Assembly (NCBI RefSeq): GCF_036346105.1 | Contig: NZ_CP107811.1 | Span: 5,785,501 to 5,849,500, forward strand | Direction: 5' to 3' | Origin: Streptomyces sp. NBC_00539 | Lineage (GTDB): Bacteria; Actinomycetota; Actinomycetes; Streptomycetales; Streptomycetaceae | DNA length: 64,000 nt | Shown: in pieces, positions 38,534 to 56,272 of the stretch | Numbering within the stretch: position 1 is the stretch's first letter | Layout of the letters: the number at the start of each line of letters is the position of its first letter | Notes under the pieces: generated by a model | Told to the model about the DNA's origin: nothing | What the model saw: only the letters and a program-made list of their open reading frames with translations | The model's database searches: none | Made by a program: the position numbers and the translations under genes

Positions 38534-38956
38534 ATGAGCGAGCACACCCCGGAGGGCCCCGGCTCCCAGGACGTTCCCGACGCGGACGTCATCGAGCTGG
38601 CCACCAAGATCTTCGACCTCGCCCGGCAGGGGCAGACCGCCGCGCTGACCGCCTACCTCGACGCCGGGGTCCCGGCGAACCTCACCAACGACCGGGGCGA
38701 CACCCTCGTCATGCTCGCCGCCTACCACGGTCACGCCGAAGCCGTCACCGCCCTGCTGGCCCGGGGCGCCGAGGCCGACCGCGCCAACGACCGCGGGCAG
38801 ACCCCCCTCGCGGGCGCCGTCTTCAAGGGCGAGGAGGCCGTCATCCGCGCCCTGCTCGCCGGCGGGGCCGACCCGTACGCCGGCACCCCCTCCGCCGTGG
38901 ACACGGCGCGCATGTTCGCCAAGGCCGACCTGCTGGAACTTTTCGGAGCCAAGTAA
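38534..38956 (+). CDS. Ankyrin-repeat protein
   Basis: A 140-residue soluble protein made of about three ankyrin repeats (about 37-70, 71-103, 104-136), each with the pattern DRGDTLVMLAAYHGHAEAV then LLARGAEADRAN. Such proteins mediate protein binding; in bacteria small ankyrin proteins often sit beside catalases or other enzymes. No enzyme neighbour is present and the partner is unknown. The ATG follows AAAGGCGG. It stands alone, divergent from smeA. Confidence 0.88.
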   Translation: MSEHTPEGPGSQDVPDADVIELATKIFDLARQGQTAALTAYLDAGVPANLTNDRGDTLVMLAAYHGHAEAVTALLARGAEADRANDRGQTPLAGAVFKGEEAVIRALLAGGADPYAGTPSAVDTARMFAKADLLELFGAK

Positions 38957-43130: not shown

Positions 43131-43144
43131 TAGTCTTTCCGTCG
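43131..43144 (+). promoter_or_regulatory. Leaderless promoter of the condensin-like operon
   Basis: TAGTCT (43131-43136), a common Streptomyces -10 box, is followed by seven bases and then GTG at 43144, so transcription would begin at or beside the start codon. There is no ribosome site. A TTGGGA lies 19 bases upstream as a poor -35 box. Confidence 0.45.
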
Positions 43145-44649
43145 TGACTCTCCCTGCCCCGGCGAAGCCCCTCGTCTCCCCGGCGCCGGGCCCGGCCGCC
43201 GACGAGGGCCTGGCCCGGCGCCTGCGCGCCCTCGCCTGCACCGCCCCGCTGCACGACCTCGACGTCCGCAAGGCCAATCTGGCCGGCGAGTACGGGGTCT
43301 ACGCCATGGCGGAGGTCGCGCTGGCCGCGATCGACCTGGTCACCCTCAACATGGACTTCGACACCGGCGCCGACCACGAGCAGATAGTGGCCCGGCTGCT
43401 GCCGCGCGTCGCCGCCCAGGCCCCCGCCCGGCCCACCGCCGAGCACGAGCGGGTGGCGCGCTGGGTCCTGGAGAACCTGATCAACGTCGGCAGCGTGGAC
43501 CGGGGCTTCCGCGCGATCTACGGCACCTTCGGCCCCGACGGTGTCTACGTCCGCAGGGACTACGACTTCAAGCTGATCGAGGAAGTCCCCGGCTACGGCG
43601 GGGCGGTGTACCTGCGCACCACCGACGAAGCCGTGAACGTGCTCGTCGGCGCCCTGGACACCGACGTGACCAGCGCGCAGATCGCCGCCGAGGTCAAGCT
43701 GGAGGTGCTGATCAGCCGCGGCCGGCTCGCCGATGCCCAACTCGCCGCCGAACAAGCCAGGTACCGCACGGTCCAGTACGCGGAGACCCTGCGCCGGACG
43801 CTGGACGCGACGCGGCGCAACGTACGGGCCGTGGACTGGCTCGAAGCCGTCCCGGACATGATCGCCGAGGCCCTGGAGCACGTCGCCGACCGCTACCGGC
43901 ACGAGAACGCCATCCTCACCAACATCCGCAAGGCCCGCGACGAAGCCGAGGACCCCGACAACAAGCGGCGCGCCGCAGAGCTGGTCGACATCGTCAAGGA
44001 CTGCATCCGCCGGCACACCCAGCTCCAGTCGCGGCTGCTGGACGCCGGCCCGCTCTTCCGCGCCGAGCAGGACCGGCAAGCCTTCGCCGCCCCGGCGCCG
44101 CGCTCGGGAATCGACCTGTACGGGCAGCTGATCGCCCCCGTGCTGCCGTTGCCGCTGGAACGGGCCACCAAGGTCACCGACGCGTTCTTCGCCCGGGGAA
44201 CCGGTCTGCGCACCCCCGTCTCGGTGCGGGTCGCCGACCTGGTGGAGATCCTGCTGACGCCGCCCGTGGAGCGCGAGCACCTGGGCGTGGAGATGCCCGA
44301 GCCCGACCTGATCGCCACCCCGGACGACAGCCGGTTCAGCGAGGAGCAGCTCGCCGCGGCCATGGTGCTCCTGGACCTCCCGCACGACGCCCCGCGCCGG
44401 CTGTCCGGCCTGCTGGCCGAGGCCCGGCGCAGCGACCCCGAACTGCCGTACCTGGTGGCCCTGCTGGCCGTCCACGCGGCGAGCCCGGCGGTGGGTACGG
44501 CGTACCGGCAGGGCGAGGAGCGGCTGCTGTTCGCGGTGGACGACGGCACCGAGCTGGACGACCCGGAGTTCGGCGGCGCCGACCTGATCGTCGGCACGGC
44601 CCTCCTCGACGCCGCCGCCATGACGGCCGCCCGCACGGAGGCATCGTGA
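43144..44649 (+). CDS. MukF/JetA-like (kleisin-type) subunit of a condensin-like system
   Basis: A 501-residue soluble protein. Residues 35-160 look like winged-helix material ending in VYLRTTDEAVNVLVGALD; 165-300 are long charged helices (ISRGRLADAQLAAEQARYRT onward to the DPDNKRRAAELVDIVKDC segment), and the C-terminal 170 residues form a second compact region. This layout and place, first in an operon with a winged-helix protein and a giant SMC-like ATPase, parallels MukF/MksF/JetA. The assignment is by architecture and gene order, not by a search. GTG at 43144 fits a leaderless transcript; in-frame ATG at 43111 is an alternative. The stop overlaps the next GTG. Confidence 0.65.
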   Translation: MTLPAPAKPLVSPAPGPAADEGLARRLRALACTAPLHDLDVRKANLAGEYGVYAMAEVALAAIDLVTLNMDFDTGADHEQIVARLLPRVAAQAPARPTAEHERVARWVLENLINVGSVDRGFRAIYGTFGPDGVYVRRDYDFKLIEEVPGYGGAVYLRTTDEAVNVLVGALDTDVTSAQIAAEVKLEVLISRGRLADAQLAAEQARYRTVQYAETLRRTLDATRRNVRAVDWLEAVPDMIAEALEHVADRYRHENAILTNIRKARDEAEDPDNKRRAAELVDIVKDCIRRHTQLQSRLLDAGPLFRAEQDRQAFAAPAPRSGIDLYGQLIAPVLPLPLERATKVTDAFFARGTGLRTPVSVRVADLVEILLTPPVEREHLGVEMPEPDLIATPDDSRFSEEQLAAAMVLLDLPHDAPRRLSGLLAEARRSDPELPYLVALLAVHAASPAVGTAYRQGEERLLFAVDDGTELDDPEFGGADLIVGTALLDAAAMTAARTEAS

Positions 44650-45353
44650 CCGCCGCGTCCGCCGCGTGGGCCCGGCCGGGGCCCGTGTGCGGGCGGGGCG
44701 GTCTCCTCACCGTGCCGTCGGCCGTCGCCGCCGCTCCCGCTACCGCCGAATCCACCGCTTTGACCGCCCTGTCCGCGGCCGGCGCGTGGACGACGGCCGA
44801 GACCGCCGCGTGGCCCCGGCCGGTGCCCGTGTGTGGGCGGTGTGGTCCGCTCACCGCGTCGCCCCATGCCGTTGCCGCTCCCGCTCCCGCTCCGGTCGAG
44901 ACCGCCGCGTCCGCCGCGGGGGTCCGGCCCGCGCACCCGCGCGGGCGGTGCGGCTCGCACCGCCGAGCGCGCGGGGGCGGGCCACCCACCGGGCCGGGCA
45001 CGGGGTCGCCGGCGGTCACGGGCCCCCGGCCGCGCGCCGCTGCGATGGTCGGCCGGGTTGCCCATGTGCCTTCCGAGACGACCGCCGCGCCGCTCCCGGA
45101 GCGTTCCGCCGCTGCTTGCCCGGTCGGCGGCCGCGCTGCTTTCGGGCCGGTCTCTTCCACGGCCGCGAGCCCCCGCCCGGTGTCCGCCTCGGGGGCCGCC
45201 GGCCCCCCCGACCCGCAACGCCGGCCGCCCGCCGGGCCCGGCCGCCGGGCCGGGTTCCGCCGGGAGCCACGACGGCCGGGGCGGGGTCGGCCGCCGGCCA
45301 TCCCGGCGCCCGCCGCCGAAACCACCGCACCACACGAAAGGCACCACCCGTGA
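44646..45353 (+). CDS. Low-complexity repeat ORF inside the condensin-like operon, uncertain
   Basis: A 235-residue frame starting at GTG 44646, which overlaps the preceding stop, and ending in a TGA overlapping the next GTG at 45350. It contains three degenerate in-frame repeats beginning TAASAAWARPGPVCGRGG, TAETAAWPRPVPVCGRCG and TAASAAGVRPAHPRGRCG, 51 and 33 codons apart. Composition is Ala/Pro/Arg-rich, third positions are less G/C-rich than in neighbours (GCT, GGT, TGT, CAT) and no fold is evident. It may be real and fast-evolving, or a spacer that happens to stay open. Confidence 0.35.
   Translation: MTAASAAWARPGPVCGRGGLLTVPSAVAAAPATAESTALTALSAAGAWTTAETAAWPRPVPVCGRCGPLTASPHAVAAPAPAPVETAASAAGVRPAHPRGRCGSHRRARGGGPPTGPGTGSPAVTGPRPRAAAMVGRVAHVPSETTAAPLPERSAAACPVGGRAAFGPVSSTAASPRPVSASGAAGPPDPQRRPPAGPGRRAGFRREPRRPGRGRPPAIPAPAAETTAPHERHHP
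44648..44965 (+). repeat. Three imperfect repeats between the JetA-like and JetB-like genes
   Basis: Copies begin with GACCGCCGCG at 44648, 44801 and 44900. Each continues with a CCGGCC(C/G)G-rich block, a GTGTGCGGGCGG-like segment and a run of GCTCCCGCT or similar. Spacings (153 and 99 bases) keep the reading frame of the 235-codon ORF. Confidence 0.6.
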
Positions 45354-46252
45354 GCGACCACCACGCCGAAGCCCCCGCGTGGGGCGAGCCCGACGCCGCC
45401 CCGGGCCCGGCGCCGGCGCCCGGCGCCGCGGCCGTGACCCCCGCCGACGCCGCCGACGCGGCCCGGCTCGTCGCCTTCGGGCTCCAGCCCAAGCTGCTCC
45501 CCGCCCGCGACGCCGAGTACGCCGAACTGCTGCGCCGCTACCGCGACGAGCCCGCCTTCGGCCGTCTCGCCGACGCCGTCGCCACCGGCCTCGGCCTCGT
45601 CGTGCTGGAGGTCTCCGCGCGCGCCGGCATGGCGGTGGCCGCCGACGAGGACTCCGTCTTCGCCGTCCGGATGGGCGACTACGCCCGCCGCACCGCCGCC
45701 GACGGCGGCGACCGCTTCCTGCACGGCCTCGCCCACCTCGCCGTCGCCGCCCTGGCCTTCCCCCGCCCCGAGGACCTCGCCGACGACGGCTACATCGGCC
45801 GGATCACCGTCAACGGCGTCGACTCCTTCGTCCGGCAGACCTGCCGCCGCCTGGAGGAGCGCGCCGAGGAACTCGGCGAGAACACCGACCCCGCCTCCGA
45901 CGCCCCCGGCCTGGAGGCCGCCTGGCGCGTGTACGCCCGCCGCAGCGCGACCGGCGCCACCAAGGACGCGCGCCGCCTGGCCGGTTCCACCACCGGCATC
46001 GTCGGCAAGGCCGCCGCCTTCCTCACCGAATCCGGCTTCCTCCAGCGCACCGGCGACGAGTCCGGCGGCACCTACCGCACCACCCCCCGCTACCAGCTCC
46101 AGGTCCGCGACATGGCGGGCAGCGCCGCCATGGCCGAACTCCTGGAGCTCGGCGTGGTCCCCGTCAGCGACGGCTGCGCCACCCTCCTGCCGCCGCCCGA
46201 GGGCGACGACCTGGAGCTCGCCGCCGACGCCGGCCTGCCCTTCCACGCCTGA
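45350..46252 (+). CDS. MukE/JetB-like (KITE-type) subunit of a condensin-like system
   Basis: A 300-residue protein. After a Pro/Ala-rich N-terminus (1-40), helices with AAWRVYARRSATG and a clear winged-helix segment follow: STTGIVGKAAAFLTESGFLQ, then a TYRTTPRYQLQVRDM wing near residues 220-260. Tandem winged helices of this size, between a kleisin-like and an SMC-like gene, characterise MukE/MksE/JetB. The GTG at 45350 overlaps the stop of the repeat ORF. It precedes the SMC-like gene by 54 bases. Assignment rests on context and motif shape. Confidence 0.6.
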   Translation: MSDHHAEAPAWGEPDAAPGPAPAPGAAAVTPADAADAARLVAFGLQPKLLPARDAEYAELLRRYRDEPAFGRLADAVATGLGLVVLEVSARAGMAVAADEDSVFAVRMGDYARRTAADGGDRFLHGLAHLAVAALAFPRPEDLADDGYIGRITVNGVDSFVRQTCRRLEERAEELGENTDPASDAPGLEAAWRVYARRSATGATKDARRLAGSTTGIVGKAAAFLTESGFLQRTGDESGGTYRTTPRYQLQVRDMAGSAAMAELLELGVVPVSDGCATLLPPPEGDDLELAADAGLPFHA

Positions 46253-46306
46253 GCCCCGCGCCCTGATCCCCGTACGCACCACGAGAGACCGCGAGAACCC
46301 GCCGCC

Positions 46307-49300
46307 ATGTACGAGCTGTCCCGGATCCGCCTCTACTCCATCGGGCCCGCCGGCGCACGCTACGCCGACACCGTGCTCGACCTGCGCGGAGTCGGCGAGC
46401 CGGTGCCCCACCCGGCGCCCGCCCAGGCGGAGTTCTTCGAGGACGAGCCGACGGGCCCGCCCCGCCGGCCCGCACCCGCAGGCGTGCTCTTCCTGGAGAA
46501 CGGCGGCGGCAAGTCCGTCCTGCTGAAGCTGATCTTCTCGGTGATGCTGCCCGGCCACCGCAACACCCTCGGCGGGGCCAGCTCCGGCGTGCTGCGCAAG
46601 TTCCTGCTCGCCGACGACTGCGGCCACGTCGCCCTGGAGTGGCAGCACACCCAGACCGGCGAATGCGTCGTCGTCGGCAAGGTCAGCGAATGGCGTGGCC
46701 GGCAGGTCTCCAACGACCCGCGCAAGTTCGCCGAGGCCTGGTACTCCTTCCGCCCCGGCCCGGGCCTGAGCCTCGACAACCTGCCCGTCGCCGAGGCCAC
46801 CACCGTGCGCCCGCCCGTCGAAGGCGCCTCCGGCGCCCAGGGCCGCCGTCGCACCATGAAGGGCTTCCGCGACTCCCTCACCGAGGCCGGCAAGGCGTAC
46901 CCGCACCTGGAGGTGTACTGGGAGGAGATCCACGACCGCTGGAACGAACACCTCACCGATCTCGGCCTCGACCCCGAACTCTTCCGCTACCAGCGCGAGA
47001 TGAACGCCGACGAGGGTGAGGCCGCCGGTCTCTTCGCGGTCAAGAAGGACTCCGACTTCACCGACCTCCTGCTGCGCGCCGTCACCGACACCCGGGACAC
47101 CGACGGCCTCGCCGACCTCGTCCACGGCTTCGGCAACAAGCTCGGCCGCCGCTCCGAGCTGATGGCCGAACGGGACTTCACCGCCGGGTCGGTCGAACTC
47201 CTCACCAAGATCGTCGAGGCCGCCGAGACCCGCTCCCGGCTGCGCGACGTCCACGCGGGCGCCGAACGCCGTACCCGCACCCTCGCCCGGCGCCTGTCCG
47301 CCCGCGCCACCGAGGAACGCGGCCGCGCCGCCGAACTCGCCGAGCGGGTCACCGCGGCCGCCCACGCCGTCACCGCCGCCGAGTCCGCGCGCGAGCGCAG
47401 CGCCGCCATCTCCGCCGAACTCGCCTACCGGCACGCCTCGCTGGCCCTGACCGTCGCCGACAAGGCCGCCGCCGCCCAGCGCCGCGAACTCCTCGAAGCC
47501 CGCACCCTGCACTCCGCCTGGCAGGCCGCCGAGACCGTACTGCGCCACCGCGCCGCCGCCGACCGCTCCGCCAGGGTCGCCGCCGCCATCCTGGAGGCCG
47601 AGCGCGACGCCGCCCCCGCCCTGGCCGCCCGAGCCAGGGCAGCCACCGAACTCGTACGCGCCCTGCACACCGCCGCCGAGCAGGGTGAGGCGCGGGCCAA
47701 CGAGGAGGAGGAGCGTTCCGCCGTCCTCCAGGCCGCTGGCGAGGCCGCCCACCGCGACGCCACCGCCGCCGCCACGGCCGCCCAGCGCGCCCGCAGCGAG
47801 GCCGAACACCTCCGCGCCCGCCTCTCGGAGGTCCAGCAGGAGACCGCCGAAGCGGTACGGGCCGGCTGGCTCGACGACTCGGCGCCAGACGCCGACCCGG
47901 CGCGCGCCGCCCTCGCCGCGAGCGACGCCGAGAAGAGCGCCGTGGCCGCCTGGGACGAGTCCCGCGAGGCCGCACGCGCCGCCGCCGACGCCGCCCGCGA
48001 GGCCGCCGCCACCGAAGCCCGCGCCGAGCTCACCGCCGCCCGTGCCGCCGACGCCGCGGACGCCGCCGAAGCCGCCCACGCCGCGGAGGAGCGCGCGGCC
48101 GCCTCCCTGGCCGCCACCCCCCGCCTGGCGGAGCTGCTGGGCCTGCCCTCGGCCCCCGACACCTTCCTCCCGCGTCCCCGCGCGGGCGCGCAGCCGGTTT
48201 CCTCCCAGGCCGCGGACGCCGGTGCCCCCGGCTCCGCACCCACCGCCCAGGCCTCGGCCGCCCCCGGCCTGACCGTCGCCGACCTCGACCGGGGCTCCGA
48301 CGAACTGCTGCGGATGCTGGCCGATACCGTCGGCTCCGCCGAACGCCAGCTGTTCGAGCTGCGCACCGCAGCCGCCGAGGACGCCCGCATCCTCGGCGCC
48401 CTCGGCGACGGCGGGCTGCTCCCGCCCGGCCCCGACGTGCTCGCCACCGTGGAGTACCTCGGCGAACACGGCATCCCGGCCCTCCCCGGCTGGCGCTACC
48501 TCGCCCAGTCCGTGGACCCCGCCGACCACGCCGCCGTCCTCGCCGCCCGCCCCGAACTGGTCGACGGCGTCGTCATCACCGACCCCGACACCCACTCCCG
48601 TGCCCGGGAGGTCCTCTCCGGCGCCGCCCTGCTGCCCCGCTCCACGGTGGCCGTCGGCACGGCCGCCGCGCTGCTGGCCCCGGTTCCGCCCGCCGACGCG
48701 GATCCGGCCGGCTCCGGCATCTTCATCGTTTTCCCGAACCCGGCCATGCACGACGAACACGCCGCCGACGAGGAACGCCAGGCGCTGCGCACCCGCGCCA
48801 CCGCCCGGGACGCCGAGATCCGCGACCTGGCCGCCCGCCTCTCCGGCGACCGGGAGCTCGCCGCCCGGCTCGCCTCCTGGCGCACCGGCTGCCCGCCCGG
48901 CCGTCTCACCGAGCTCGCCGAACACGCCGCCGCCGCACGGTCGTTCGCCGAGGAATGCGACGCCGAACTCGCAGAGGCCCGTACCGTACGCGCCGAGGCC
49001 GACGAAGCCGCCGCCGACGCCGCCCGGGTCCGCGACGAGCGCCAGGACGCCGCCCAGCGCGCCCGCCGGGCCGCCGACGCCCTCTCCGGCCTCGCCTACC
49101 GCTTGCGCGAGCGCTCCGGCTGGCAGGCCCGGCTGCGGGAACTCGCCGACGAGGCGGCCGAGTCCGAGGCGCGCGCCGAAGCGTGCCTGGACCGCGCCCG
49201 CGCCGCCGACGAGGACCGCCGCGCCGCGCAGCGCGCCGCGGACGACGCCCGCCGCACCGCCCGCGCACTGCGCGCCGAGCGCGCCGACATCGCCGGCGCC

Positions 49301-50995
49301 CCCGACCCCCTCCCCGAGGACGACGGCACGCCCAAGGCGCCCCTCCCCGACCTGCGCGAGGCCTACCGGGCCGCCTCCCGGCTCTACGAGAAGGTCGGCG
49401 TCGGCGCCGACCTGCGCGCCGAACAGGCCCGCGCCGAAAGCGACGAGAGCGCCGCCCTCGCCGAACTCGACCGGCTCACGAACAAGGTGCGCACCCGGGC
49501 CGCCCAGCTCCTCGAAGGCACCGACGGCGCCGACGGCCCCTCCCGGCAGGCCGCGGCGGCGCGCGCCGAGGCCCTCGTACAGATGCTGGAATCCCGGGCG
49601 TCGGCAGCGAGCGAGCAGCTCGGCCGGCTGCGCGGCGAGGCCGAACGGCACGCCCCCGCCGACGGCGAGGCGCACACCGACCTGCCCGAGGAACTCGTCC
49701 CCGGGGACGTCGAGCAGGCCCAGGGCCTGCTGCGCACCGCCACCGCCCAGCTCGCCGCCCACACCGCCGCCGTCGAGAGCGCCCGCGCCGCCCACGGCGA
49801 CCTGCTGCGCTCCCACCGCACCGCGGAGGACGGGGCGGGCGGCTTCGACGAGACCGCCGCCCTCCTGCGGGACCTTCTGCGCGACCACACGCAGCAGGAG
49901 GACGAGCAGGAGCCGGCGCCCCACCGGGGCACTCTGGAGGAGGCCCGCCAGTCCGCCGCCGAGGCCCGCCGTTCCCTGCGCGGCTGCGCCGCCGACCTGT
50001 CGGCCGCCGAGTCGGCCGTCCGTGAGGCGAGCGACGTCCTGGTCCGCCACGCCAACGCCAACCGCTACGAGCAGGTGCGCACCCCCGCACGCCAGCAGAT
50101 CCGCGAACTGCCCGCCTCCGCGCTGCCGGAGCACGCCGCGGCCTGGGCCTCGGCCTTCGCCCCCCGGCTGCGGGTGCTCACCGACGAACTCGCGCAGCTG
50201 GAGCGCAACCGCGACAGCATCGTCGACCGGCTGCGCGGCCTGGTCGAATCCGCCCTGGCCACCCTGCGCTCCGCCCAGCGGCTCTCCCAGCTCCCCGAGG
50301 GCCTGGGGGAGTGGTCGGGCCAGGAGTTCCTGCGGATCCGCTTCGAGGAGCCCGACCAGGCGACCCTCACCGAGCGGCTCGGGGAGGTCATCGACGAGGC
50401 CACCCGCGCGGCCGTCAAGAAGAACAGCACCGCCTCCTTCGGTGAAGGCCGGCGCGACGGCATGTCCCTGCTGCTGCGCGGGGTCCAGGCGGCCCTGGAA
50501 CCCAAGGGGATCTCCGTGGAGATCCTCAAGCCCGACGCGGTACTGCGCGCCGAGCGGGTGCCGGTCGGACAGATGGGCGACGTCTTCTCCGGCGGCCAGC
50601 TGCTCACCGCCGCGATCGCCCTCTACTGCACCATGGCGGCGCTGCGCAGCAACGACCGCGGCCGGGACAAGCACCGCCACGCGGGCACCCTGTTCCTGGA
50701 CAACCCCATCGGCCGCGCGAACGCCACGTACCTGCTGGAACTCCAGCGGGCCGTGTCCGACGCGCTCGGCGTGCAGCTGCTGTACACCACCGGCCTGTTC
50801 GACACCACGGCCCTCGCGGAGTTCCCGCTGGTCATCCGGCTGCGCAACGATGCGGACCTGCGGGCGGGCCTCAAGTACATCAGCGTCGAGGAGCACCTGC
50901 GCCCCGGTCTGCCGCAGCAGTCCCCGGACGGCGAGACCATCCACGGCGAGATCACGGCGACCCGCATGTACCGCCGCTCGACCGCGGGCGCCTGA
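46307..50995 (+). CDS. SMC/MukB/JetC-like ATPase, 1562 residues
   Basis: A giant SMC-like protein. The N-terminal head has Walker A LENGGGKSVLLK (residues 64-70 core). Residues about 290-620 and 830-1400 are Ala/Glu/Arg-rich coiled coil, separated by a globular, hinge-like part (about 640-810) containing GIFIVFPNPAMHDEH. The C-terminal head has the ABC signature FSGGQ (1427-1431) and Walker B GTLFLDNPIGRAN (D1465; the usual Glu after Asp is Asn). This is the plan of MukB, MksB and Wadjet JetC. It ends the operon; no JetD-type nuclease gene follows. Likely partners are the two upstream proteins. ATG with a weak GAGA-type ribosome site. Confidence 0.8.
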   Translation: MYELSRIRLYSIGPAGARYADTVLDLRGVGEPVPHPAPAQAEFFEDEPTGPPRRPAPAGVLFLENGGGKSVLLKLIFSVMLPGHRNTLGGASSGVLRKFLLADDCGHVALEWQHTQTGECVVVGKVSEWRGRQVSNDPRKFAEAWYSFRPGPGLSLDNLPVAEATTVRPPVEGASGAQGRRRTMKGFRDSLTEAGKAYPHLEVYWEEIHDRWNEHLTDLGLDPELFRYQREMNADEGEAAGLFAVKKDSDFTDLLLRAVTDTRDTDGLADLVHGFGNKLGRRSELMAERDFTAGSVELLTKIVEAAETRSRLRDVHAGAERRTRTLARRLSARATEERGRAAELAERVTAAAHAVTAAESARERSAAISAELAYRHASLALTVADKAAAAQRRELLEARTLHSAWQAAETVLRHRAAADRSARVAAAILEAERDAAPALAARARAATELVRALHTAAEQGEARANEEEERSAVLQAAGEAAHRDATAAATAAQRARSEAEHLRARLSEVQQETAEAVRAGWLDDSAPDADPARAALAASDAEKSAVAAWDESREAARAAADAAREAAATEARAELTAARAADAADAAEAAHAAEERAAASLAATPRLAELLGLPSAPDTFLPRPRAGAQPVSSQAADAGAPGSAPTAQASAAPGLTVADLDRGSDELLRMLADTVGSAERQLFELRTAAAEDARILGALGDGGLLPPGPDVLATVEYLGEHGIPALPGWRYLAQSVDPADHAAVLAARPELVDGVVITDPDTHSRAREVLSGAALLPRSTVAVGTAAALLAPVPPADADPAGSGIFIVFPNPAMHDEHAADEERQALRTRATARDAEIRDLAARLSGDRELAARLASWRTGCPPGRLTELAEHAAAARSFAEECDAELAEARTVRAEADEAAADAARVRDERQDAAQRARRAADALSGLAYRLRERSGWQARLRELADEAAESEARAEACLDRARAADEDRRAAQRAADDARRTARALRAERADIAGAPDPLPEDDGTPKAPLPDLREAYRAASRLYEKVGVGADLRAEQARAESDESAALAELDRLTNKVRTRAAQLLEGTDGADGPSRQAAAARAEALVQMLESRASAASEQLGRLRGEAERHAPADGEAHTDLPEELVPGDVEQAQGLLRTATAQLAAHTAAVESARAAHGDLLRSHRTAEDGAGGFDETAALLRDLLRDHTQQEDEQEPAPHRGTLEEARQSAAEARRSLRGCAADLSAAESAVREASDVLVRHANANRYEQVRTPARQQIRELPASALPEHAAAWASAFAPRLRVLTDELAQLERNRDSIVDRLRGLVESALATLRSAQRLSQLPEGLGEWSGQEFLRIRFEEPDQATLTERLGEVIDEATRAAVKKNSTASFGEGRRDGMSLLLRGVQAALEPKGISVEILKPDAVLRAERVPVGQMGDVFSGGQLLTAAIALYCTMAALRSNDRGRDKHRHAGTLFLDNPIGRANATYLLELQRAVSDALGVQLLYTTGLFDTTALAEFPLVIRLRNDADLRAGLKYISVEEHLRPGLPQQSPDGETIHGEITATRMYRRSTAGA

Positions 50996-51050
50996 CGCCC
51001 GGCGGGCGCCCGGCCGGGCAGGGCCGCCCCGTACCGTCAGTCCCGTACCG

Positions 51051-51554
51051 TCAGCCCCGGCCGTGGGCAGCCAGTCGGCCGCCCTCGGCCGGGCGTATGC
51101 GGGGCACCCGGCCGGGCGCCCCCGAGCGGGCCTCCCGGCCGGTCCGGCGCTCCTCCCGGCCGCCATCGCGCGCCGTGCTGCTCGGCCGGGACAGGACCCC
51201 GTGACGCTGGTTCCACATCTGCCGGGTGATCAGCACGTCCAGCACGGCCCAGGTGGCCACCACCGTCCCGGCTATCGCACCGAGCCCCATCGGCAGGGCG
51301 AGCCACGAGCCGGTCAGGGTCAGGAAGAAGCTCACCGTCGCCTGCATCAGGGTCAGGGCCACTATCAGCACCGCCCGCACCGCCGAAGCCCTCACCGGAT
51401 CGGGCATGCGGTACCTGCGTGCGGGCTCCTCCACCCACAGCGACCGCCTCGTGGCCGTCGCCCCGGCCCCGCCGTGGTCCCCGTACCCCGATCCGTCCGC
51501 CACCGCGTCGCCCGTCACCGCGTCGCCCGTCACCGCGTCGTCCCTCGTGCTCAT
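51051..51554 (-). CDS. Small two-helix membrane protein, hypothetical
   Basis: A 167-residue protein from the ATG at 51554 (GGGGAG upstream). The N-terminus has a VTGDA repeat, followed by an RRYRMPDPVRASAVRA stretch, two membrane helices (VLIVALTLMQATVSFFLTL and LPMGLGAIAGTVVATWAVLDV) and an Arg-rich cytoplasmic tail. It converges with the SMC-like gene and is divergent from the cvn operon. Its function is unknown; a link to either neighbour is unproven. The longer open frame upstream covers the intergenic region and is not credible. Confidence 0.7.
   Translation of the reverse strand: MSTRDDAVTGDAVTGDAVADGSGYGDHGGAGATATRRSLWVEEPARRYRMPDPVRASAVRAVLIVALTLMQATVSFFLTLTGSWLALPMGLGAIAGTVVATWAVLDVLITRQMWNQRHGVLSRPSSTARDGGREERRTGREARSGAPGRVPRIRPAEGGRLAAHGRG
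51505..51545 (-). repeat. 15-bp tandem repeat in the small membrane protein gene
   Basis: The unit caccgcgtcgcccgt is repeated almost three times and encodes VTGDA-VTGDA-VADG. Being a multiple of three, changes in copy number would keep the frame. Confidence 0.7.
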
Positions 51555-51948
51555 GGTCCACTCACTCCCCACCGCACGGTCCGCATTGCCTACCCACACC
51601 TCATACCCCCTTGTGCGGTTTCGACCGTCTTCCCCGTCAGACGATCGGAGACGACGGGAGATTCCCGGATCCCGGAACGGGTTCACGCGCCCCGAGAGGC
51701 CCGGAGGAAGAATTCCAGCCATCCCTCCGATTGCGGGAACCGACACCCCACGAGGTGCCATGTGCCACATAACGGGCCGGACTTGCCAGGACCTAACGGA
51801 CAACTCATGATCTTCACAAGGGCAGCAGGCCGAAAACGTCCGGACACGCCTTCGAAGCTTCTCCCCGGCAGTAGTAGGCTCACGCCGTTTAAAAGACGGA
51901 ACACCGAGCCCCGGCAACGGGGTTGACCTGGGGGAGGCTGGGGAGGCC
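51555..51948. other. Divergent promoter region ahead of cvnA
   Basis: This 394-base stretch holds no gene with family signs. TAGGCT at 51875-51880 is a plausible -10 box toward cvnA. A TTCGAAGCTTC segment (51851-51861) and CCCCGGCAACGGGG (51910-51923) are short inverted repeats. The lower G/C content of 51590-51900 fits regulatory DNA. Confidence 0.4.
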
Positions 51949-54786
51949 ATGCGCTTTCGCGGGAAGTCCGTCCGCCGGAAGATCGTGGCGTTGCTCCTTG
52001 TGCCGCTCGTCTCCCTCACCGCCCTCTGGGCCTTCGCGACCGTCATCACCGGCCGCCAGGCCGTGCAGCTCCTCGGCGTCGCGCCCGTCATCGCCAAGGT
52101 GGGCTACCCCATCGAGGACGTCGTCCGCGTCCTGCAGAAGGAACGCCGGCAGACCCTCGTCGTCATCGGCGACCCCCGCGCATCGTCCGCCATCGCCGAA
52201 CTCGCCAGGAGCCGTACCGCCACCGACACGGCCGTCCAGGACATCACCGCCGACGCCTCCAACCCCAAGGTCGTCGACCAGCTCAGCCCCGCCAACGCAC
52301 AGCGGCTGCGCTCCATCCTCGACGCGTTCCACGGCATCGCGGCCCTGCGCCACTCCGTCGACCAGAACAGCCTCGCCCCCGACCAGGCCCTCGACCTCTA
52401 CAGCCGGCTGGTCGACCCCTGCTACGAGTTCCTCATGAACCTCCACGCCCTGGAGGACGTGGAGATGGACAAGGAGGGCCGGGCCCTCGTCGGCGTCACC
52501 CGCGCCCGGGAGACGCTCTCCCGCGAGGACGCCGTCATCGCCTCCGCCCTCGCCGCCCGCAACATCGGCGCCGCCGACATCCGGCACGTCTCCGACTACA
52601 CCGCCAACCGCGCGCTGCTCTACGAGTTCAACCTCGCGATCCTCCCCGCCGCCGACCGCGACGTCTTCGAGCAGTACTGGGCCGGTCCCGAGACCAAGGC
52701 GCTGCGCGACGCAGAGGAACGATTCATCTCCGCGGGCGCCGCCAAGCCCCCGCGCACCCTCACCGCCGCCCAGTGGGACGAAGCCGCCGGCAAGGTGCTC
52801 GGCGACCTCGCCGACATGAACACCGCCGCCGGAGACCGCTACCAGGAGCGCGTCAAGCCCGTCGCCATGAACGTGCTGGTCCAGGCAGCCGTCGCGGGCA
52901 TCCTCGGCTTCATCGCCCTGATCGTCTCCCTCGTGATGTCCGTGCGCATCGGCCGCGACCTCATCCGCGACCTGTCCCGGCTCCGCAAGGACGCCCACGA
53001 GGCGTCCGGCGTCCGGCTGCCCAGCGTGATGCGCCGCCTCGCCGCCGGCGAGAACATCGACGTGGAGACCGAGGCGCCCCGGCTGGAATTCGAGAAGGAC
53101 GAGGTCGGCCAGGTCGCCCTCGCCCTCAACAGCCTCCAGCGCGCCGCCGTCGAAGCCGCCGTCAAGCAGGCCGAACTGCGCCGGGGCGTCTCCGAGGTCT
53201 TCGTCAACCTGGCGCGCCGCAACCAGGTGCTGCTGCACCGCCAGCTGACCCTGCTCGACACCATGGAGCGGCGCACCGAGGACACCGAGGAACTGGCCGA
53301 CCTGTTCCGCCTCGACCACATGACCACCCGCATGCGCCGGCACGCCGAGGGCCTGGTGATCCTCTCCGGCGCCGCGCCCTCGCGCCAATGGCGCAAGCCG
53401 GTCCAGCTGATGGACGTCGTACGGGCGGCCGTCGCCGAGGTCGAGGACTACGAGCGCATCGAGGTCCGCAGGCTCCCGCGCATCGGCATCGAGGGCCCCG
53501 CCGTCGCCGACGTCACCCACCTCGTCGCCGAACTGCTGGAGAACGCCACCGTGTTCTCCCCGCCGCACACCGCGGTCCAGGTCCACGGCGAGCGCGTGGC
53601 CAACGGCTTCACCCTGGAGATCCACGACCGGGGCCTGGGCATGACCCCCGAGGCGCTGCTCGACGCGAACCTCCGGCTCGCCGAGACCCCCGACTTCGAG
53701 CTCTCCGACACCGACCGGCTCGGCCTGTTCGTCGTCAGCCGCCTCGCCCGCCGCCACAGCGTCAAGGTGGTCCTCCAGCCCAGCCCGTACGGGGGCACCA
53801 CCGCGGTGGTCTTCCTCCCGGCGGAACTGCTCACGGACGCACCCGACACCAACGGCACCGGGATCCGCCTCGAAGGCCTCAAGAACGCCAAGACCGGCAA
53901 GACCGGCAAGGCCGCAAGGCCCGTGCCGACGGGCAGGGGCGGCTCCGCCACGGTCGGCGCCGCCCCGGCCGGCCGGCCGCTGCCCGCCGGGGTGCTGGGC
54001 GGCCCCGTAGAGCTGGAGGGCCCGCTCGGCGTCCTCGGCCTGGACGGCGCCGACGGCCTGGACGACGACCCCGCGGCCCTGGACGAGGCCGCCCCAGGTC
54101 TCGCCGGCCTCACCGGAGCCGGCGGCCGCCCCCCGATGGCCACCCTCGACGACGAGACACCGCCCGGCGGCATCCCGGGCGCCGTCCTCGGCCTGCGCCC
54201 CTCGGGCAGGCCGGGCACCGGCCGGCACCCGGAGCGCTCCGGCCCCTGGAAGGGCGACCGGCTCGGCGAACGCCACCGCGAGCGCGGCACGGGCCCGGCC
54301 GGCGAGTCCGTCGCCCCGTCCGGCCCGGTCCGCATGGAGCGTTCCCGCCCGGACCCCGAAGGCCCCCGCGCCCCGGGAGCCATCCCGCTGCCCCGCCGGC
54401 GCCCGACCCCGACGCTGGTCGCCGACCACGGCCGCCGCGTCGAGCCCCGCCCCGTGCCGGTGGCCGGCCGGGCCGGGCAGACCGAGGAGGCGGCCCGCGC
54501 CGAGAACCCCGGCACGCCCGATCCGGGCCCCGCCGGCCTGCCCCGCAGGGTCCGCCAGGCCAACCTGGCACCCCAGCTCAAGAACACCCCGGCCCCCGCA
54601 CCGGCCGACACCACCGCGAAGGCGGTCACCGACCGCGACGCGGAGGACGTACGTACGCGCATGTCCGCCCTCCAGCGCGGCTGGACGGCGGGCCGCAACC
54701 AGCACGCACCGCAGCAGTCCGAAGCCGAGGCCGGCACCCCCGCCACCCCGACTCCCGGATCCGAGAACGAAGGGGACGGTCGATGA
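51949..54786 (+). CDS. cvnA: Conservon sensor kinase-like protein CvnA (nitrate/nitrite-sensor type)
   Basis: A 945-residue membrane protein. Helix 1 (about 10-32) and helix 2 (about 305-330) bracket an extracellular helical domain of the NIT sensor type. A HAMP-like linker leads to an ATPase domain with N box LVAELLENATVFSPPHTAVQV, G1 DRGLGM and G2 RLGLFVVSRLARR; the dimer helix has RNQVLLHRQLTLLD. The last 300 residues are Pro/Gly/Arg-rich. CvnA starts the conservon signalling set, likened to a G-protein-coupled receptor unit. The ATG follows GGGGAGG; the stop overlaps the cvnB start (ATGA). Confidence 0.92.
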   Translation: MRFRGKSVRRKIVALLLVPLVSLTALWAFATVITGRQAVQLLGVAPVIAKVGYPIEDVVRVLQKERRQTLVVIGDPRASSAIAELARSRTATDTAVQDITADASNPKVVDQLSPANAQRLRSILDAFHGIAALRHSVDQNSLAPDQALDLYSRLVDPCYEFLMNLHALEDVEMDKEGRALVGVTRARETLSREDAVIASALAARNIGAADIRHVSDYTANRALLYEFNLAILPAADRDVFEQYWAGPETKALRDAEERFISAGAAKPPRTLTAAQWDEAAGKVLGDLADMNTAAGDRYQERVKPVAMNVLVQAAVAGILGFIALIVSLVMSVRIGRDLIRDLSRLRKDAHEASGVRLPSVMRRLAAGENIDVETEAPRLEFEKDEVGQVALALNSLQRAAVEAAVKQAELRRGVSEVFVNLARRNQVLLHRQLTLLDTMERRTEDTEELADLFRLDHMTTRMRRHAEGLVILSGAAPSRQWRKPVQLMDVVRAAVAEVEDYERIEVRRLPRIGIEGPAVADVTHLVAELLENATVFSPPHTAVQVHGERVANGFTLEIHDRGLGMTPEALLDANLRLAETPDFELSDTDRLGLFVVSRLARRHSVKVVLQPSPYGGTTAVVFLPAELLTDAPDTNGTGIRLEGLKNAKTGKTGKAARPVPTGRGGSATVGAAPAGRPLPAGVLGGPVELEGPLGVLGLDGADGLDDDPAALDEAAPGLAGLTGAGGRPPMATLDDETPPGGIPGAVLGLRPSGRPGTGRHPERSGPWKGDRLGERHRERGTGPAGESVAPSGPVRMERSRPDPEGPRAPGAIPLPRRRPTPTLVADHGRRVEPRPVPVAGRAGQTEEAARAENPGTPDPGPAGLPRRVRQANLAPQLKNTPAPAPADTTAKAVTDRDAEDVRTRMSALQRGWTAGRNQHAPQQSEAEAGTPATPTPGSENEGDGR

Positions 54787-55220
54787 CCGCACCGCAGACC
54801 GGCAACGACACCAGGGGCCGCGGCTCCGGCCCGCTCAACTGGCTCCTCGACGAGCTCGTCGACAAGGTCGGCAGCATCCGCAAGGCGGTCGTCCTCTCCG
54901 GCGACGGACTGCCCACCGGCAGCTCCAAGGACCTGACCCGGGAGGACAGCGAGCACCTGGCGGCCGTCGCCTCCGGCTTCCACAGCCTGGCCAAGGGCGT
55001 CGGCCGGCACTTCGACTCCGGCAGCGTCCGCCAGACCGTGGTCGAGCTGGACGAGGCCTTCCTCTTCGTGATGGCGGCCGGCGACGGAAGCTGCCTGGCC
55101 GTGCTGGCCGACGCCGAATCCGATGTGGGCCAGGTCGCGTACGAGATGACCCTCATGGTCAAGCGCGTCGGCGACCACCTGGCGACCGCCCCGCGCTCCG
55201 GGCTGCCAGCCGGAGGGTGA
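54783..55220 (+). CDS. cvnB: Roadblock/LC7 protein CvnB
   Basis: A 145-residue roadblock/LC7-fold protein: LNWLLDELVDKVGSIRKAVVLSGDGLPTGSS at the start, a helical part (HLAAVASGFHSLAKGVGRHF) and the late strand pattern FLFVMAAGDGSCLAVLAD. Such proteins act as regulators of small GTPases; here the partner is CvnD three genes on. The ATG at 54783 overlaps the cvnA stop, indicating coupled translation. Confidence 0.94.
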   Translation: MTAPQTGNDTRGRGSGPLNWLLDELVDKVGSIRKAVVLSGDGLPTGSSKDLTREDSEHLAAVASGFHSLAKGVGRHFDSGSVRQTVVELDEAFLFVMAAGDGSCLAVLADAESDVGQVAYEMTLMVKRVGDHLATAPRSGLPAGG

Positions 55221-55230
55221 GACGGACGGC

Positions 55231-55665
55231 ATGAGCGATTCAGGCCGGTACCACCCCGAGCAGACCCCGGGCGGCGCGGAGGACCCCGCGCACCCGCACT
55301 GGTTCGACGACGAGGCGGGCCCCGTCGTGCGCCCGTACGCCATGACCCGCGGCCGCACCAGCCACGCGGGCCAGCACCGCCTCGACCTGATCGCGCTCGT
55401 CGTCGCCGAACCGGCGGCCGACGATCCGGTCTGGGACCTGACCCTGTCCCCGGAACACGCCCACATCCTGGGAAGGTGCCGGGAACGCCCCCAGTCCGTC
55501 GCGGAACTCGCGGCCGACCTCGACCTCGCGGTCGGGGTCGTCCGTGTCCTGATCGGCGACCTCGTCGACGACGAACTGGTCCACGTGACCCGGCCGGTAC
55601 CACCGGCCGAACTGCCCGACGAATCCATTCTGCGTGAGGTGATCGATGGCCTTCGGGCGCTCTAG
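55231..55665 (+). CDS. cvnC: DUF742 protein CvnC
   Basis: A 144-residue DUF742 protein with a winged-helix-like core (EHAHILGRCRERPQSVAELAADLDLAVGVVRVLIGDLVDDELVHV) following VVRPYAMTRGRTSHAGQHRLDLIALV. DUF742 proteins are the third member of every conservon and are thought to bridge sensor and GTPase or bind DNA. Its end overlaps the start of cvnD by 20 bases. Confidence 0.94.
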   Translation: MSDSGRYHPEQTPGGAEDPAHPHWFDDEAGPVVRPYAMTRGRTSHAGQHRLDLIALVVAEPAADDPVWDLTLSPEHAHILGRCRERPQSVAELAADLDLAVGVVRVLIGDLVDDELVHVTRPVPPAELPDESILREVIDGLRAL

Positions 55666-56272
55666 CCGCACCGGCGCCATGCATGCCGTGTCGCCGGTCG
55701 AGCCGCTGACCCTCAAGATCCTGGTCGCGGGCGGTTTCGGGGTGGGCAAGACCACCCTGGTCAGTGCGGTGAGTGAGATCAGACCGCTCCGGACGGAGGA
55801 ACGTCTGTCCGAGCCGGGCATCGGCATCGACGACACCGGGGGAGTGGAGGGCAAGAGCACCACGACCGTGGCGATGGACTTCGGCCGCATCACCCTCCGC
55901 GAAGACCTCGTGCTCTACCTCTTCGGCACGCCCGGACAGGACCGCTTCTGGTTCCTGTGGGACGAGCTGGCCCAGGGGGCGCTGGGCGCCGTGGTCCTCG
56001 CCGACACCCGCCGCCTCGCGGACTGCTTCGCCGCCGTGGACTACTTCGAGCGGCGCGGCATCCCCTTCGTGGTCGCGGTCAACTGCTTCGACGGCGCCGA
56101 CCGGCACCCGGTGGTGACCGTACGGGAGGCCCTCGACCTCGACCCCGACGTACCGGTGCTGCTGACCGACGCGCGTGACCGCGAGTCGGTCAAGGACGTA
56201 CTGGTCGGCGTGGTGGAACACGCCATGTCGCAGGCCAGGGCCCGCCGCCACAGCCTGTCGGCCGGGGCCTGA
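55646..56272 (+). CDS. cvnD: Conservon GTPase CvnD
   Basis: A 208-residue Ras-like GTP-binding protein. G1 is AGGFGVGKTTLV (about residue 32), the switch II region FGTPGQDRFWF, and the G4-like motif VAVNCFDGA. It is the output switch of the conservon. The ATG at 55646 lies inside the end of cvnC. A strong hairpin 23 bases after the stop ends the operon, so no cvnE or cytochrome P450 gene belongs to it. Confidence 0.94.
   Translation: MAFGRSSRTGAMHAVSPVEPLTLKILVAGGFGVGKTTLVSAVSEIRPLRTEERLSEPGIGIDDTGGVEGKSTTTVAMDFGRITLREDLVLYLFGTPGQDRFWFLWDELAQGALGAVVLADTRRLADCFAAVDYFERRGIPFVVAVNCFDGADRHPVVTVREALDLDPDVPVLLTDARDRESVKDVLVGVVEHAMSQARARRHSLSAGA

Follow-up and report, generated by a model that had tools for sequence, protein, structure and literature searches.

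A type III JetABC operon lacking the nuclease JetD is core in Streptomyces and probably encodes a second condensin

The window analysed in this work, a stretch of 64,000 nucleotides from Streptomyces sp. NBC_00539 (contig NZ_CP107811.1, positions 5,785,501 to 5,849,500), hosts an operon which, judging from family and fold matches, encodes the type III Wadjet proteins JetA (a MukF-like kleisin), JetB (a KITE, or tandem winged-helix, protein) and JetC (an SMC-type ATPase). The operon is core in Streptomyces. JetD, the nuclease of the system, has probably been permanently lost, and what is left, JetABC, would be a chromosomal complex common to the genus and probably act as a second condensin beside SMC-ScpAB. 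Nearly all Streptomyces genomes examined keep JetABC without JetD, in most cases at the same conserved site of the chromosome, and this suggests that a former weapon now serves as another, so far unstudied, motor for organising the chromosome. That the three proteins form a complex, extrude loops, act on the chromosome and descend from a JetABCD defence system are our inferences.

JetA has been identified in 193 of the 199 Streptomyces genomes sampled, and in 192 of the 194 of good quality. Four of the six genomes with no JetA match contain the JetC head (86-95% identical); neither was found in G079 and G198, whose completeness is 78% and 81%, respectively. This brings the genomes with JetA or the JetC head to 197 of 199, and by this survey, of the kind suggested with the original prediction, the operon is core in the genus. 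An order-level sample, overlapping the former, gave JetA in 133/133 genomes of the same genus (85-100% identical), and outside the genus in 2 of 15 only, at 33% and 44% identity. A conservon kinase gene lies 3' of the operon in 10 of 11 core loci, and a LamB/YcsF gene lies 5' in 9 of 11; one core locus (L060) has neither neighbour. In 18 contigs longer than 5 Mb, which may be rotated, the distance of the operon from one end is 10-22% of the contig in 14 cases and 33-50% in the other four.

The absence of JetD, originally noticed next to the operon, holds genome-wide. No match in the whole genome was obtained either with the Pfam model JetD_C or, at E<=10, with a type III JetD profile built from nine JetDs; the suggested check for a jetD-like gene elsewhere detected none. 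As a positive control, the profile matches 19 of the 199 genus genomes, 14 of them strongly; JetD_C matches 24 of the 199, and a Corynebacterium glutamicum control genome as well. The JetDs from which the profile was built are PADLOC JetD3 proteins in 5/5 cases tested, as is that of locus L088 described below (E-values 4.4e-123 to 7.1e-79). Beside the core operon jetD was found in 0 of 12 loci, namely the window and 11 others reaching at least 2.9 kb past jetC. In the window the next gene (51037-51561) is, as predicted, convergent, on the opposite strand, and not jetD.

Full JetABCD sets occur in the genus as rare, divergent second copies, chromosomal or plasmid-borne, with JetA about 30-57% identical to that of the window. 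The regions around nine weak JetD_C matches are all (9/9) second jetABC operons with jetD after jetC, their products being 33-50% (JetA), 35-58% (JetB) and 30-38% (JetC) identical to those of the window, and in 8 of the 9 an NTGA overlap joins jetC to jetD. These loci (L041-L049) were picked via JetD_C matches and contain jetD by construction, and L088 and L091 were picked knowing that JetD was on the same contig. Among second copies picked by JetA alone, jetD adjoins jetC in 6 of the 6 that are readable (L073, L077, L078, L080-L082); L076 stops short of the jetD position, and this set left out the accessory JetAs of G273 (two), G307 (a fragment), G210 and G217. JetA was found in five of 72,556 plasmid records (three from Streptomyces, all less than 60% identical), and the same five carry JetD. 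Because of these two results, 6/6 and 5/5, JetD is seen to track the accessory copies, not the core operon. At least two JetA matches occur in 16 genus genomes, 13 of which have a strong type III JetD. G119, G128 and G171 have at least two JetA matches, no strong JetD and one JetC-head locus each (in two adjoining pieces in G119), and a fragment may account for the additional JetA match. In the fourteenth genome with a strong JetD, G191, the accessory jetA is truncated by the contig end (L049). Two genomes, G090 and G151, each gave three matches for JetA and two for JetD, and the JetDs are located as a pair near both chromosome ends, as expected of the terminal inverted repeats of linear chromosomes, which would place anti-plasmid systems in repeats close to the telomeres.

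The core complex could in principle borrow JetD in trans from accessory JetABCD sets or other JetD-like nucleases, as the 19 genomes with a type III JetD match might be taken to indicate. Yet a type III JetD match is lacking in 180 of 199 genomes (that of the window among them) and a JetD_C match in 175 of 199, and nearly all of these genomes keep the operon, which makes such borrowing very improbable.

JetD-less copies are also found in Frankiaceae. In a class-level sample of 296 genomes, JetA matches outside Streptomyces were confined to 15 genomes of this family (Frankia, Parafrankia). In a set of 35 Frankiaceae genomes, JetA is present in 19, each of which has a copy about 61-63% identical to JetA of the window, and a type III JetD match is present in 6. 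No jetD was found in the 11 Frankiaceae loci with at least 5 kb past jetC (L064-L070, L072, L083, L089 and L095). In turn, L088, from the Frankiaceae genome G599, is a jetABC operon with jetD whose JetA is 62% identical to the core JetA, and the same genome contains the JetD-less L089 and two more JetA matches; identity alone therefore cannot separate JetD-less from JetD-bearing copies. A JetA tree, from which L088 is missing, sets the 24 JetD-less rows apart from the others by a branch with support 94/92. In a midpoint-rooted concatenated tree of 42 rows, L088 included, the Streptomyces core and the Frankiaceae set are each a clade (100/100 both); L047 and L091, very distant, and L075, L090, L092, L093 and L094, which are cut, were dropped. 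Since JetD-bearing copies fall both outside and inside the JetD-less groups, one or two losses are the simplest history. According to these trees JetD was probably lost once or twice, JetD-less copies being nested among JetD-bearing ones.

Open reading frames (ORFs) read from the window sequence confirm the operon at the predicted positions (Table 1), with products of 501, 300 and 1562 amino acids (aa). The original prediction had proposed a kleisin-like, a winged-helix and an SMC-like protein in the order JetA-JetB-JetC. The trio and its order are upheld by PADLOC, in which JetA matches JetA3 (PDLC00567, E=1.2e-187) and JetC matches JetC3 (PDLC00588, E=0), and by fold model matches, which favour a kleisin (MukF-like) fold for the 501-residue and a KITE (MukE-like) fold for the 300-residue protein. 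At E<=1 the Pfam and NCBIfam models of SMC, ScpA and ScpB matched none of the three proteins, and sequence searches of PDB with the operon proteins found no credible relative.

Table 1. Genes, motifs and segments of the jetABC operon (window positions)
Feature	Positions	Strand	Basis
jetA, kleisin, type III Wadjet family, 501 aa	43144..44649	+	PADLOC JetA3
Hypervariable relay ORF, 235 codons	44646..45353	+	GTGA start on jetA stop; TGA end in jetB GTGA
jetB, KITE (tandem winged-helix) protein, 300 aa	45350..46252	+	KITE fold model match
JetB N-terminal tail, 36 residues	45350..45457	+	Length compared with JetD-bearing rows; N-terminal sequences
jetC, SMC-type ATPase, 1562 aa	46307..50995	+	PADLOC JetC3, E=0
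Walker A ENGGGKS, JetC residues 64-70	46496..46516	+	Core alignment
ABC signature FSGGQ, JetC residues 1427-1431	50585..50599	+	Core alignment
Walker B LFLDNPIG, JetC residues 1462-1469, Asn replacing the usual Glu	50690..50713	+	

The three ATPase motifs predicted in JetC are all in place, and ENGGGKS, FSGGQ and the Walker B Asp1465 are invariant across the window and 10 other aligned core copies. The residue following Asp1465 is Asn, not Glu, in the window and in the core copies aligned. As the LDNPIG sequence is found also in the aligned JetD-bearing JetC rows, Asn is not specific to JetD-less copies, and by this alignment is a trait of the type III family. The idea of an ATPase-dead relic which lost its catalytic Glu was rejected on the same ground. 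Most SMC proteins have the catalytic Glu at this position, and the aligned type III JetCs, from operons with or without JetD, would have to hydrolyse ATP without it. All three genes are under purifying selection: dN/dS values between the window and four relatives are 0.075-0.141 for jetA, 0.141-0.273 for jetB and 0.164-0.253 for jetC. The missing JetD might speak for a decaying, functionless Wadjet remnant; with motifs intact, dN/dS at 0.075-0.273, jetC frames open and a near-universal presence, this is hardly credible.

Wadjet and MukBEF, whose anatomy is known, are dimers of SMC motors that extrude loops, and JetD cuts once a small circle has been fully extruded (PMC10586767). By analogy, JetC would dimerise, with the JetA kleisin and the JetB KITE protein as bridges, and load on DNA, and the resulting dimer of SMC motors would extrude loops with ATP. 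Without JetD nothing would cut at the end of extrusion, and the complex would be a loop extruder, which may help to fold or compact the linear Streptomyces chromosome. For MksBEF of Pseudomonas aeruginosa, which contributes to chromosome organisation, loss of JetD is the likely origin (PMC10586767). In Streptomyces venezuelae the phenotype of an smc mutant, and even of an smc hupS mutant, is described as rather mild (PMC8410768), which leaves room for a second condensin. The original prediction had offered either a condensin beside SMC-ScpAB or a defence system with another effector. Its interpretation is supported, with the two no longer on a par: a chromosomal condensin is ranked first because of the MksBEF precedent and the mild smc phenotype, and defence is kept as the rival.

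The N-terminus of JetB is of interest for both. The residues preceding the first conserved helix number 28-57 in 10 core rows versus 9-12 in 13 JetD-bearing rows, some of the JetB starts compared being script-chosen; in 10 Frankiaceae rows the same stretch spans 8-65 residues, three rows having 18 or fewer. Core tails have a conserved start, V[ST][DE]H...AWSEP or similar, followed by a variable Ala/Pro sequence. In type I Wadjet the N-terminus of JetB contacts JetD (PMC10586767), and our guess is that a new partner may dock at the tail. Such a partner would suit also the hypothesis that JetABC is still a defence sensor for small circular or invading DNA, with an unrelated effector acting from elsewhere or silencing based on loops, and the sequence kinship to Wadjet goes in the same direction. 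However, no conserved effector gene adjoins the operon, the neighbours being metabolic or signalling genes (5-oxoprolinase-like, MFS, GntR, conservon), though a distant effector acting in trans was not searched for, and near-universal presence with high conservation is unlike defence genes. A defence sensor is on balance unlikely. An effector encoded next door was rejected at the loci seen; by sequence reading, the genes inserted upstream in other species code for an MFS transporter and a GntR-type regulator.

A chromosomal role other than bulk compaction, such as the control of integrative elements or of the copy number of large linear plasmids by extrusion without cleavage, is a further alternative. 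MksB of C. glutamicum, together with MksG, sets plasmid copy number (PMC10123090), and the genome of the window has a second contig of 437 kb. The operon is nonetheless present whatever the number of contigs, and no direct support emerged in this analysis, so that we regard such a role as quite unlikely.

Several points weigh against a condensin. The proposed role rests on homology and genomics; PADLOC labels JetA and JetC as defence proteins; a cofactor tying JetABC to the chromosome was not identified in this analysis; and ATP hydrolysis by JetC is assumed, since Asn spans the whole type III family. Moreover, the concatenated tree groups JetD-bearing copies with the Frankiaceae set (93/90), and contains no single JetD-less clade. 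Such a clade is recovered in 4% of bootstrap trees, yet is not rejected (p-AU 0.302).

In the window jetA and jetB lie 0.7 kb apart, and a 235-codon ORF (44646-45353), overlooked in the original prediction, occupies this space. Of 38 core loci, 37 preserve its phase and 36 show NTGA coupling on both sides, N-TG including TTG and CTG starts. The 38 loci are the 30 best JetA matches, minus L022 (in which jetB falls outside the locus), plus nine others. The exceptions are L028, in which the phase is broken, and L021, in which the start is GTAG. Without selection on the frame one third would be expected in phase; the loci are related, and no probability was computed. The length of the ORF ranges from 12 to 235 codons, with 36 different values over the 38 loci. 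The G+C content by codon position is 0.78/0.76/0.84, versus 0.78/0.46/0.95 in jetA, which is not coding-like, and the peptide itself therefore seems unconstrained. JetD-bearing operons have a direct jetA/jetB overlap as NTGA in 12 of 14 cases (with script-chosen starts), Frankiaceae loci in 8 of 12. The ORF is probably a relay for translational coupling: translation would have to pass from jetA into jetB, and the spacer, having arisen in Streptomyces, would be tolerated only while ribosomes keep going. Relays of this sort may be a general coupling device.

The above may be combined into a wider, tentative scheme, the chances of which we rate as slightly worse than even. According to it, all Streptomyces and many Frankiaceae would use a second condensin domesticated from an anti-plasmid weapon by nuclease loss, once or twice; the relay ORF would serve the translation of kleisin and KITE in Streptomyces, and the JetB tail would be the docking site of a chromosomal partner.

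The core operon resembles type III Wadjet in the JetA3/JetC3 families, in gene order and in ATPase motifs, and has jetABCD paralogues in the same genus. It differs in the lack of jetD, the near-universal chromosomal rather than patchy occurrence, the longer JetB N-terminus and the relay ORF. JetA and JetB are linked to MukBEF by the kleisin and KITE model matches, but searches of PDB revealed no recognisable sequence similarity, and MukBEF replaces SMC-ScpAB, while Streptomyces possesses SMC-ScpAB too (PMC4255298). MksBEFG of C. glutamicum is likewise an actinobacterial Mks/Wadjet complex, but its targets are plasmids, and it includes MksG, which is homologous to JetD (PMC10123090). In contrast to MksBEF of P. 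aeruginosa, which also is without MksG, the JetD-less state is here fixed across the genus and recurs in Frankiaceae. As far as is known, MksBEF belongs to a different Wadjet lineage.

A DefenseFinder survey of Actinobacteria reported Wadjet as enriched in the phylum and towards Streptomyces chromosome ends (PMC10482375). The latter trend fits the accessory copies; the extract of the survey mentions neither JetD nor a core copy. Caution is needed with PADLOC-type models, by which JetA and JetC of the core operon are counted among defence proteins. Wadjet is not mentioned in the extracts of two Streptomyces SMC papers, or of a paper on Streptomyces orphan proteins. Titles and opening lines of abstracts in the open-licence literature disclosed no description of a nuclease-free JetABC in Streptomyces, though a prior one is possible. 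Work on chromosome folding in Streptomyces has taken SMC-ScpAB to be the condensin, and the mild smc phenotype is unexplained (PMC8410768). A near-universal, conserved SMC-kleisin-KITE complex would be an obvious candidate for the missing activity. The operon would also offer a testable, dated case of a defence machine becoming a housekeeping motor, for which JetD-bearing paralogues present in the same cells can serve as controls.

In the window, the operon is surrounded by LamB/YcsF and CT_A_B/CT_C_D genes and by a conservon. The conservon-like genes, at 51949-56272 and 3' of the operon, encode a NIT-HATPase kinase, a DUF742 protein and an ATP_bind protein. A small ankyrin-repeat protein is encoded at 38534-38956.

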